Assembly: GCF_002906575.1 (NCBI RefSeq)
Contig: NZ_CP026309.1
Coordinates: forward strand, 3,782,001 to 3,846,000
Source: Salinigranum rubrum
Lineage (GTDB): Archaea; Halobacteriota; Halobacteria; Halobacteriales; Haloferacaceae
Direction: 5' to 3'
Length of the DNA: 64,000 nucleotides
How positions within the stretch are numbered: the first letter of the stretch is position 1; each line of letters starts with the position of its first letter. A program made the translations under genes and the position numbers. The notes under the pieces were generated by a model. That model saw nothing but the letters and a program-made list of their open reading frames with translations, had not been told where the DNA came from and did not search any database. Shown here piece by piece: positions 4,310 through 30,562 of this stretch.

Positions 4310-4571
4310 CGGCGACGCACGAGGCGGCCGCTGCGGAATCGAGACGAGTGAAAAGGAGGAACTGGCATGTGGGGGGAGAGGGGGGGGAGTCCCACGCAGT
4401 TCCTCGTTTCGACGATTGTGAGTGAGGGTCAATTAATTTTCGGTATCGGCTAGCTGTTACGTATTCTGACCCCCACAGGCGGAGTCTTACCTGGTCGAGT
4501 GTCCAAGATAGAAACAATGTGTATCTGCATAAACATTAGTATCACCGAGAAGCAGTCCGCGCGTCCGGACG
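4310..4571. other. intergenic region without visible gene
   Basis: After the cupin gene there is a purine-rich run with G stretches (4352-4392), then an AT-richer segment at 4425-4550 with TAATTTT and ATAAACATTAG. No acidic open frame with a start and promoter was found. It borders the gene-tail repeat array of the acyl-CoA dehydrogenase. Confidence 0.5.
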
Positions 4572-4774
4572 CATTCGCTCGAACGGTGGAATTCCGGTTC
4601 CTCAGCGCGTTTCTACCGGATACACGACCGAACTCACTCGAAGGCCGGAATCCCGGACTCTCACCGCGATTCCACCGATCCCGTGACCGGACTCACTCGA
4701 AGGCCGGAATCCCGGACTCTCACCGCGATTCCACCGACCCCGTGACCGGACTCACTCGAAGGCCGGAATCCCGG
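4572..4774. repeat. 59-bp tandem repeats containing the 3' tail of the acyl-CoA dehydrogenase gene
   Basis: Two near-identical 59-bp units lie at 4632-4690 and 4691-4749, with exact spacing (ACTCACTCGA at 4632, 4691 and 4750). The third start, at 4750, runs into the real gene end. Each unit carries the last six codons and TGA of the adjacent gene (GIPAFE-stop on the minus strand) plus a 36-nt spacer. A clearly related but decayed unit lies at about 4572-4631. The two full units differ at about one base. The array lies in the 3' untranslated region of the dehydrogenase. Confidence 0.9.
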
Positions 4775-5915
4775 TGAGTTCGTGCCCGACGATGAGCGAG
4801 TGGATGTCGTGGGTTCCCTCGTAGGTGTAGACCGTCTCGATGTTCGCCAGGTGACGCATCGGCGAGTAGTCGCGCGTAATTCCGTTGCCGCCGAGCATCT
4901 CACGGGCGGTTCGGGAGGCGTCGCGAGCCATCGCGACGTTGTTCCGCTTGGCCATCGACACCTGCGCGGGGGTGAGGTCACCGCGCTCTTTCAGTTCGGC
5001 GAGGCGGTACGCCAAGAGCTGAGCGGTCGTAATGTCGGTGGCCATGTCGGCGAGTTTCTCCTGTTGGAGCTGGAACCGTGCGATAGGGCCGCCGAACTGC
5101 TCTCTGTCCAGGGCGTACTCGCGGGCGGTCTCGAAGCAGTCGCGCGCGACACCGACAGCGCCCCAGGCGATGCCGTACCGCGCCTGCGTCAGACACGACA
5201 GCGGGCCCTTCATCCCCTCGACCCCTGGGAGCACGTCCTCTTCGGGAATCCAGACGTTCGAGAGGCCGATTTCGCCCGTGATCGAGGCGCGCATCGAGAG
5301 CTTCTCCTCGATTTTGTTCGTCGTGACGCCGTCGCGGTCGGTCTCGACGAGGAACCCTCGGACGGGCTTCCCCTCCGCGGAGGTGTCGCGCGCCCAGACG
5401 ACCGCGACGTCGGCGATGGGCGAGTTCGTGATCCACGTCTTCGACCCCTGGAGTCGGTAGCCGTCGCCGTCCCTCTCCGCTCTCGTCTCCATGCTCGCGG
5501 GGTCCGAGCCGTGCTCGGGCTCCGTGAGACCGAAGCAGCCGACGGCCTCGCCCGTGCCGAGGTCGGGGAGCCACCGCTCCTTCTGCTCGTCGGAGCCGTA
5601 CGCGTGGATGGGGTACATCACGAGCGCGCCCTGAACGCTCGCGGCCGACCGGACGCCGGAGTCGCCGGCCTCCAGTTCCTGCATCAGGAGACCGTACGCC
5701 GTCTCGCTCACTCTCGGGAGGCCGTACCCCTCCAGATTCGGCGCGAAGAACCCGAGTTCGCCCATCTCGGTGATGAGTTCGGTCGGAAAGGTTCCCTTCT
5801 CGAAGTGCTCGCCGATGTCCGGACGCACCTGCTCGTCGACGAAGCGACGGGCGGTGTCGCGGATCATCCGCTCTTCTTCGTCGAGGTCTGCCTCCAAGTC
5901 GACGTAATCAAGCAT
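4752..5915 (-). CDS. acyl-CoA dehydrogenase, glutaryl-CoA dehydrogenase type
   Basis: 387 residues from ATG; a GTG seven codons upstream is less likely. It is an FAD-dependent dehydrogenase of acyl-CoA thioesters. FGLTEPEHGSDPASMETRA and KTWITNSPIADVAVVWARD form the FAD/substrate regions. RYGIAWGAVGVARDCFETA and LDREQFGGPIARFQLQQEKLADM match glutaryl-CoA dehydrogenases, and YEGTHDIHSLIVG holds the catalytic base Glu. It probably acts in lysine/tryptophan-derived or related short dicarboxyl-CoA breakdown, but substrate is not certain. The gene end is repeated downstream in 59-bp units. Confidence 0.85.
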   Translation of the reverse strand: MLDYVDLEADLDEEERMIRDTARRFVDEQVRPDIGEHFEKGTFPTELITEMGELGFFAPNLEGYGLPRVSETAYGLLMQELEAGDSGVRSAASVQGALVMYPIHAYGSDEQKERWLPDLGTGEAVGCFGLTEPEHGSDPASMETRAERDGDGYRLQGSKTWITNSPIADVAVVWARDTSAEGKPVRGFLVETDRDGVTTNKIEEKLSMRASITGEIGLSNVWIPEEDVLPGVEGMKGPLSCLTQARYGIAWGAVGVARDCFETAREYALDREQFGGPIARFQLQQEKLADMATDITTAQLLAYRLAELKERGDLTPAQVSMAKRNNVAMARDASRTAREMLGGNGITRDYSPMRHLANIETVYTYEGTHDIHSLIVGHELTGIPAFE

Positions 5916-6297
5916 ACTGGGTGTCGGAAGCCTCACGGCAAAAGCTTTCGCAGGGTCGTGTCAGTCGAGGAGTCTGTGCCGTCGCTGGCGACGGCGCGAG
6001 ACGGACACGGGGTCGCGGTCAGCACCGGGAGCTGCCGGGTTGGGGTGGCTCGACAGAACACGAAGTCGTCGCCGCTCGGTCTATCCGCCGACAGCGTACC
6101 ACGTCACAGCCAACCATTTACGTATGAGAACGCGGCCACACCCGAACGTGCGCTGAGAGGTACCGCAGGGCGACTCGCGGGAGCGTGGTGCGCCGCCCTG
6201 CGTCCGGACCGACACCACCAGTTCGCCAGCGGTCTCACTGGACGGGGAGAAACAGTCGAGGAGAGCGACCGAGCGTGCCGTGTGCGTCGCGACCCGT
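5916..6297. other. 382-bp intergenic region, no gene seen
   Basis: It lies upstream of the acyl-CoA dehydrogenase and downstream of the amidotransferase gene, both on the minus strand. AAAGCTTTT at about 5939-5948 could be the dehydrogenase promoter, about 27 nt before its ATG. Open frames through the region are basic and overlap in several frames, so none is accepted. An AT-rich patch lies at 6112-6126. Confidence 0.45.
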
Positions 6298-29039: not shown

Positions 29040-29485
29040 GCCCGTGTTGAGCGGGTAAAAAGGTCCACGTCCCAGCCTCTCGCTCGCTCCACCGCTTCGC
29101 TCGCTCGGCAAGCCCTGGACCAAAACGACGACTACTCGAACCCCTCCGCGAGCTACTCGAACCCGTCCTCGAACACGAACGTCCACGTCCCAGCTTTTCC
29201 CTCGCTCCCTCGCTTCGCTCGGTCGCTCGGCAAAACCTGGACCAAAACGACGACTACTCGAACCCGTCCTCGAACACGAACGTCCACGTCCCAGCTTTTC
29301 CCTCGCTCCCTCGCTTCGCTCGGTCGCTCGGCAAAACCTGGACCAAAACGACGACTACTCGAACCCGTCCTCGAACACGAACGTCCACGTCCCAGCTTTT
29401 CCCTCGCTCCCTCGCTTCGCTCGGTCGCTCGGCAAAACCTGGACCAAAACGACGACTACTCGAACCCGTCCTCGAACACGAACGT
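29040..29485. repeat. 101-bp tandem repeats containing the 3' tail of the M29 aminopeptidase gene
   Basis: CTACTCGAACCCG recurs at 29153, 29254, 29355 and 29456, exactly 101 bp apart. Three full units cover 29153-29455; the fourth start, at 29456, is the stop codon of the real gene. Each unit carries a 30-nt copy of the gene's end (TFVFEDGFE-stop on the minus strand) plus about 71 nt rich in GCTCGCTTCGCTCGG-like blocks. A decayed unit lies at about 29040-29152. The three full units appear identical by eye. Confidence 0.93.
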
Positions 29486-30562
29486 GCCGTCTCGCTGGAC
29501 GACTTCGCCGTCCACCTCGATGACGGACTCGGTGCTCATGTCGACGATCATGTCGACGTGCTCGGCCGACTCGTTCGCCTCGTTCTCCTCGCCGACGCAC
29601 TCCTCGTAGGCCGCGCCGACGGCCATGTGGACCGTGTCGCCCATCTTCTCGTCGAACAGCATGTTGTAGGTGAACCGGTCGATGTTCCGGTTCATCCCGA
29701 TGCCGAGTTCGCCCAGGTAGCGCGCGCCCTCGTCGGTGTCGAAGACGCCGTCGAGGACCTCCTCGTTGCGCTCGGCCGAGTACGACTCGACGCGGCCCTC
29801 CTCGAACCGGACGCGGACCCCCTCTATCTCTCTCCCCTGCCGGTACAGCGGCATGTCGAAGTGGACCTCGCCCTCGACGCTTTCCCTCACGGGGGCGGTG
29901 AACACCTCCCCTCCCGGGAGGTTCTTCTCGCCGTAGTCGTTCAGCGTCGTGTTGCCGGCGACGGACATCGTCACGTCCGTCCCCTCGCCCGATCTGATCC
30001 GCACTTCGTCGGCGTCGTCGAGAATCTCGACCATCTCCGCCTGGTGGGCGCGCTGGGCGTCCCAGTCGAGGCTGACGGCGTCCCAGACGAAGTTCTCGTA
30101 CGCTTCGGTGCTCATTCCCGCTAGCTGGGCGTGACCGGAGGAGGGAAACTGCGTGAGACACCAGCGCTTCGAGAGCCGCTCTTTCAGCACCGGCTGCATC
30201 GCTCGCCTGTAGGCCGCGGTCGTCTCGGGCGCGACGTCGGACTGCTCGCTCACGTTGGCGCCGCCGCGAGCGATGACGACGACGTCGGTCTCCTCGTACA
30301 GCGCGAGCTGGTGGTCGGGCGTCTCGAACTCACCGCCGTCCTCGTCGCTCCCGTCGGCGCACGCGCGCAAGAACGCCCGCGAGGCGCGCTCGGAGTTGTT
30401 CAGGTAGACCGGGTTCGCCCCCCTGTCGCCGACCACCTCGTGGAGGGCGACGGCGAGGTCCTCGGCCTCCCGTGGCATGGCGATAACGACGTTCTCGCCC
30501 GCCTCGATCCCCGTCGAGTGGTCGGCGATGGTCTCCGCGTGTTCGCGGATGCGTGGGTCCAT
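29456..30562 (-). CDS. M29-family aminopeptidase (thermophilic aminopeptidase type)
   Basis: 368 residues. Metal-dependent aminopeptidase of the AmpS/PepS family. The C-terminal metal domain has VEGEVHFDMPLYRQGREIEGVRVRFEEGRV, ARYLGELGIGMNRNIDRFTYNMLFDEKMGDTVHMAVG and HVDMIVDMST, giving Glu, His and Asp ligands. The N-terminal domain has GENVVIAMPREAEDLAVALH. Length is normal. The last ten codons are copied downstream in 101-bp units. It is monocistronic and divergent from the GYD gene. Confidence 0.9.
   Translation of the reverse strand: MDPRIREHAETIADHSTGIEAGENVVIAMPREAEDLAVALHEVVGDRGANPVYLNNSERASRAFLRACADGSDEDGGEFETPDHQLALYEETDVVVIARGGANVSEQSDVAPETTAAYRRAMQPVLKERLSKRWCLTQFPSSGHAQLAGMSTEAYENFVWDAVSLDWDAQRAHQAEMVEILDDADEVRIRSGEGTDVTMSVAGNTTLNDYGEKNLPGGEVFTAPVRESVEGEVHFDMPLYRQGREIEGVRVRFEEGRVESYSAERNEEVLDGVFDTDEGARYLGELGIGMNRNIDRFTYNMLFDEKMGDTVHMAVGAAYEECVGEENEANESAEHVDMIVDMSTESVIEVDGEVVQRDGTFVFEDGFE

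Follow-up and report, generated by a model that had tools for sequence, protein, structure and literature searches.

On balance, and with moderate confidence, we interpret the tandem array behind an acyl-CoA dehydrogenase gene of Salinigranum rubrum as a duplicated, conserved stem-loop astride the stop codon of its host gene, with a probable role at the 3' end and with complementarity largely renewed by template switching. The array lies in the window (the whole stretch of DNA that was analysed, 64,000 nucleotides) and comprises four copies of the gene's coding tail at 59-nt spacing, at 4575-4778 on the minus strand, 3' of the dehydrogenase gene. Each array unit is a long hairpin with a coding 5' arm and with the stop codon near the apex. 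The features, in window coordinates, are the following.

4752..5936, minus strand: acyl-CoA dehydrogenase gene (glutaryl-CoA-dehydrogenase-like), host of the array; Pfam Acyl-CoA_dh_N/M/1
4752..4778, minus strand: arm T1, the last 8 codons plus stop, CTCACCGGGATTCCGGCCTTCGAGTGA, coding 5' arm of unit 1; pairs with 4719-4735
4719..4735, minus strand: arm T' of unit 1, inverted copy of T1, GGTGGAATCGCGGTGAG; covaries with T1 in 22 species
4719..4778, minus strand: hairpin unit 1, stop near the apex; match to covariance model R1 at E 4.6e-13, this sequence itself being among the 22 used to build R1
4693..4715, minus strand: T2, exact direct copy of the tail, by sequence identity
4664..4715, minus strand: hairpin unit 2; match to covariance model R1 at E 3.8e-6
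4634..4656, minus strand: T3, exact direct copy of the tail, by sequence identity
4598..4656, minus strand: hairpin unit 3, inverted arm decayed; spacer 23/36 identical
4575..4597, minus strand: T4, decayed copy of the tail, stop lost (CGA); 18/23 match

The first-pass annotation of this region had described a gene tail repeated in 59-bp units with a 36-nt spacer, and this description is accurate: the 23-nt tail block CCGGGATTCCGGCCTTCGAGTGA at 4752-4774 recurs exactly at 4693-4715 and 4634-4656, and the distal copy at 4575-4597 agrees with it at 18 of 23 positions. Its exclusion of a CRISPR is also borne out, since the spacers themselves repeat (the second is identical to the first at 35 of 36 positions and the third at 23 of 36), and no transposon was seen, in line with its exclusion of that class. 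Two points need correction. A stop codon in frame with the tail had been assigned to every unit, but the distal copy T4 reads GAGCGA and has lost it; and the spacer is more than filler, its 36 nt containing an inverted copy of the coding tail, in which GGAATCGCGGTGAG pairs with the tail sequence CTCACCGGGATTCC. Beyond that annotation, our analysis adds a stop-spanning hairpin that is widespread, specific to the dehydrogenase gene, and has an inverted arm that covaries with the coding tail.

The array is well separated from chance repetition. Tandem Repeats Finder reported a period of 59 with a score of 284. In a survey of the tails of own-genome genes, covering 0.86 Mb in 20-kb samples plus the window, the dehydrogenase tail copies scored 46, only 3 of 399 genes with downstream room had tail copies scoring at least 44, and none of 1,995 random pairings of tail and downstream sequence reached 30. 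The array occupies a single place in its own genome, and the doubt, raised in the first-pass annotation, that the copies might prove absent on resequencing is answered by independent assemblies from many genera, which carry it. Repeats within a protein were rejected as an explanation because the 59-nt unit is not a multiple of 3. Orthologues of the host gene occur in 4/4 genomes of the genus and 188/243 of the order; the 'glutaryl' label is our presumption, drawn from the C-terminal motif and general knowledge. A literature search, with subscription journals mostly outside it, returned no description of the array.

Across haloarchaea, the coding arm consists of the last codons of the gene (CTCACCGGxATxCCxGC), and the non-coding arm T' is located 17-33 nt past the stop. 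In many relatives, CGAG stands opposite CGAG in the upper stem, a possible tandem G-A motif, and the apex folds into a small hairpin closed by a G-N-N-A loop (CGC GAUA GCG, CCC GAUA GGG, CUC GGUA GAG, GCC GAUA GGC, CGC GCAA GCG); the window's own unit is without a GNNA loop. No run of four T directly follows T' in the 25 units listed, and a classical intrinsic terminator, composed of a hairpin and a U-tract, was rejected for lack of this U-run. Taken as a whole, the array region folds with an energy that is ordinary for its composition (z -1.1), and Rfam returned no match to the array hairpin, with only a tRNA above the gathering score in the whole window.

The distribution of the element was assessed in two ways. 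Direct and inverted copies of the gene's own tail, each called at p<=0.02 against mononucleotide shuffles, lie nearby in 21 of 101 distinct haloarchaeal 3' ends of the dehydrogenase gene. A covariance model built from 22 units matched 43/243 genomes of the order at E<=0.01; many of these matches are its own training sequences, so that the search shows where else the unit is absent more than how common it is. The stronger matches (E<1e-6, the E-values being rough and the genes called by a simple codon-usage script) fell in 27/243 genomes, all at the dehydrogenase 3' end, and came from families f1, f4, f6, f7, f8 and f17, with up to four units (G026). Most dehydrogenase orthologues are without the hairpin, and it was found in 0/66 bacterial homologues. 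Intact or decayed, it is kept in 4/4 species of the window's genus and in 5/5 examined of a second genus (g5). The window's congeners carry copies of their own tails, two extra in G002 and one decayed copy each in G003 and G001. Carriers of the hairpin cluster on a tree of 63 proteins, where its presence requires 14 changes against 21.4 with shuffled labels (0/500), a pattern that would suit long inheritance with losses and some gains. A genome-wide habit of stop-spanning inverted repeats was rejected, as general repeats of this type in haloarchaeal genes showed no excess (11 observed against ~9 expected, of 922).

Two side observations concern the same gene. One genome (G211) has two dehydrogenase copies, both matched by the model (C1 3122527-3122588 and 2197675-2197746, the second weaker). 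A different element (TTTTTACTGCGGGTCCTCCTCG..GCAAAAATCTACGCTAAAAAGGCC) follows the dehydrogenase stop in L007, L010, L175, L217, L220 and L222, and most species with it are without the hairpin.

The two arms stay complementary while the coding tail changes. In the named structure, 88.2% of stem cells over 22 species are paired, and cells in which both sides have changed number 59, against 22.2 in shuffles (0/500), which ignore phylogeny, and at most 12 in slid registers, a control that does not. In several species, for example, a Phe-to-Tyr change in the tail (TTC/TAC) is accompanied by the matching GAA/GTA on the opposite side of the stem. Double changes number 637 against 101 one-sided changes over all species pairs, and 55 against 14 in close pairs. 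G-U pairs occupy 9/374 stem cells and A-C mismatches 6/374, so that G-U is scarcely commoner. Double changes with so few G-U pairs form the pattern that would be expected of template-switch rewriting, as opposed to slow compensation in RNA alone; the G-U intermediates would be scarce because the non-coding arm is copied from the coding arm. Template switching has been proposed both to create and to maintain hairpin stems (PMC8794818), and the present stem shares with those quasipalindromes the compensatory change of several bases at once and the paucity of G-U intermediates, while differing in its protein-coding arm and in the tandem duplication of the unit. Where T1 and T2 differ, T' matches T1 at 64 and T2 at 6 of 70 informative positions; T' thus follows T1, which marks T2 as a fossil.

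In the reading we favour, tandem duplication at the hairpin would have arisen through either replication slippage or unequal recombination. It would be harmless, the first unit always restoring an intact gene end. Template-switch copying of the coding arm would largely renew complementarity, and the gene-proximal hairpin would be kept for an action at the mRNA 3' end, either termination or the blocking of 3' decay. Retention in whole genera, together with specificity for the dehydrogenase gene, argues for such a role. In a Haloferax volcanii reporter, one tested hairpin terminated 59% of transcripts (PMC7237163); the dehydrogenase element, known from its sequence, resembles these terminators as a haloarchaeal hairpin and differs from them in spanning the stop codon. 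A same-direction gene lies within 40 nt in 0/20 hairpin-bearing cases and in 10/64 others, a difference that is not significant (p 0.11).

The most serious competitor, which we regard as possible though clearly less probable, is that the hairpin has no function and maintains itself, with template switching rewriting the non-coding arm and slippage at the palindrome making the tandem copies. The near absence of G-U intermediates speaks for it, as G-U barely exceeds A-C and selection at the RNA level should clearly favour G-U; so do the tracking of T1 alone by T' and the precedent for stems created and maintained by template switching. It predicts, however, that stop-spanning palindromes should be common at other genes, for which there is no genome-wide excess, and it sits poorly with a hairpin retained throughout the species examined in two genera despite much sequence change. 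We rank a role at the 3' end above an origin by mutation alone. The element offers a natural series, spread over several haloarchaeal families, with one arm fixed by coding and the other free; such a series can separate selection on a stem from its correction by template switching, a standing question in the evolution of paired stems. It further suggests that hairpins spanning the stop codon may serve as 3'-end signals in archaea. A more elaborate role, to which we give little credence, is that the hairpin is a gene-specific regulatory element and the T1-T'-T2 layout a 3'-end switch, sensing the terminating ribosome and kept in register by template-switch copying; a ribosome covering T1 would leave the inverted arm to pair with T2 instead.

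Several lineages show head-to-tail duplication of the whole unit (~51-65 nt overall, 59 in the window), with decay of the displaced copies. As the first-pass annotation had anticipated, copy number varies between related species: in genus g5, two genomes have two units (G210 and G095), one has three (G087) and one has a single unit (G228). Variable numbers of tandem units are also characteristic of the MIRU/VNTR intergenic repeats, whose units of ~50-100 bp include the stop codon of the upstream gene. The present array shares with them tandem units whose number differs between relatives; it differs in having a unit built from the coding tail of its own host gene, in folding into a covarying hairpin and in its confinement to one gene family. 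Proximal units are identical and distal ones decayed in the window's genome (G000) and in L009, L230 and G087. That the copies nearest the gene are the youngest, as the annotation had held, therefore stands and agrees with its picture of growth at the gene end, but plain tandem duplication yields the same order: coding selection holds the proximal tail while displaced copies drift. Array growth needs no directed process, because coding selection acts on the first unit alone and exchange between units restores the gene end. Differences between T1 and T2, summed over species, comprise 54 synonymous and 50 non-synonymous changes, a ratio which by our own estimate would be near that of neutral T2 decay combined with synonymous T1 drift, and the downstream copies look like neutrally decaying duplicates. 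The array illustrates how tandem copies of a gene tail originate and decay without harm to the gene. The notion that T2 is a displaced foreign tail, suggested by synonymous-only differences in L198, L209 and L097, was dropped in view of the overall 54:50.

These data also bear on an explanation we consider improbable, in which an element integrating site-specifically at the gene's 3' end left the repeats as attachment-site scars, displacing the old tail T2 and supplying the new T1. The distal tail is indeed joined to the native flank of relatives (L159 with L188, L183 with L161, L217 with L175), but plain tandem duplication gives the same arrangement, the T1/T2 differences fit neutral decay, and the inserted stretch is always ~51-65 nt and gene-free, with no gene-sized insert seen between near tail copies. 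The tail pattern was found in 0 viral contigs, and viral attachment sites were rejected on this ground.

Still less probable is a site for recombination or transposition of folded single-stranded DNA, of the integron attC or REP type. The structure is conserved while the sequence varies, the pairs are almost exclusively Watson-Crick, and units of ~60 nt at a gene end carry GNNA-type apical loops in many species; as in attC, there is a folded imperfect palindrome with hairpin covariation at the end of a gene. The R boxes of attC (GTTRRRY/RYYYAAC) are, however, absent from the window unit. Short palindromes arrayed after genes also recall REP/BIME, but the present unit is confined to a single gene rather than dispersed in the genome, and its sequence follows that of its host; REP/BIME was rejected in view of the one place in the own genome and strong model matches at one gene in 27/27 genomes. 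The active addition of tail copies at the gene end to protect the reading-frame end from loss, as the first-pass annotation had suggested, is the least plausible of all, because the variable number and the youngest-nearest order to which it appeals both follow from neutral duplication and distal copies lose both stop and coding sense.

Arrays at 3' ends are not unique to this gene, but the dehydrogenase is the only one at which repeated instances of a stop-spanning, covarying hairpin were observed. Among 1.53 Mb of haloarchaeal DNA we counted 40 arrays with a period of at least 25 (21 intragenic and 10 intergenic, the remainder being 7 at 3' and 2 at 5' ends). This is a broad count, in which L009 and L016 may have been shortened; some 3'-end arrays come from stretches chosen for the dehydrogenase gene. 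A second tail array in the window, at 29153-29485 (period 101, 3.3 perfect copies), occupies the 3' end of the M29 aminopeptidase gene at 29456-30562 (minus strand), and each of its units holds a U-rich hairpin (GGTCCAGGTTTTGC..GGAAAAGCTGGGAC). The first-pass annotation had named the same array at unrelated genes as evidence against its reading; the M29 units are likewise near-identical, but their sequence is different. Five further M29 orthologues of the 28 read have strong tail copies that match their own tails in a similar tail-hairpin-tail arrangement. In a third own-genome case, at a diphthamide synthase gene (L123 14540-15518), the tail is repeated downstream of a hairpin of this type, and in Halobacteriales QS_9_68_17 a small predicted ORF ends in a tail array with an inverted repeat (L009 8040-8175, period 55).

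Close to the dehydrogenase array, at window 4370-4445 on the minus strand, an element conserved among congeners lies in a convergent gap. It has a BRE/TATA-like sequence (CGAAAATTAATT) followed by GAGGAACTG..CTCCCCCCCCTCTCCCCCC..CAGTTCCTCCTTTT, and with its C-rich loop it is a candidate for either a small RNA or a terminator. It has no Rfam match, and a similarity search matched only its own genome and one congener (G001); inspection by eye also shows a shorter form in G002 and G003.
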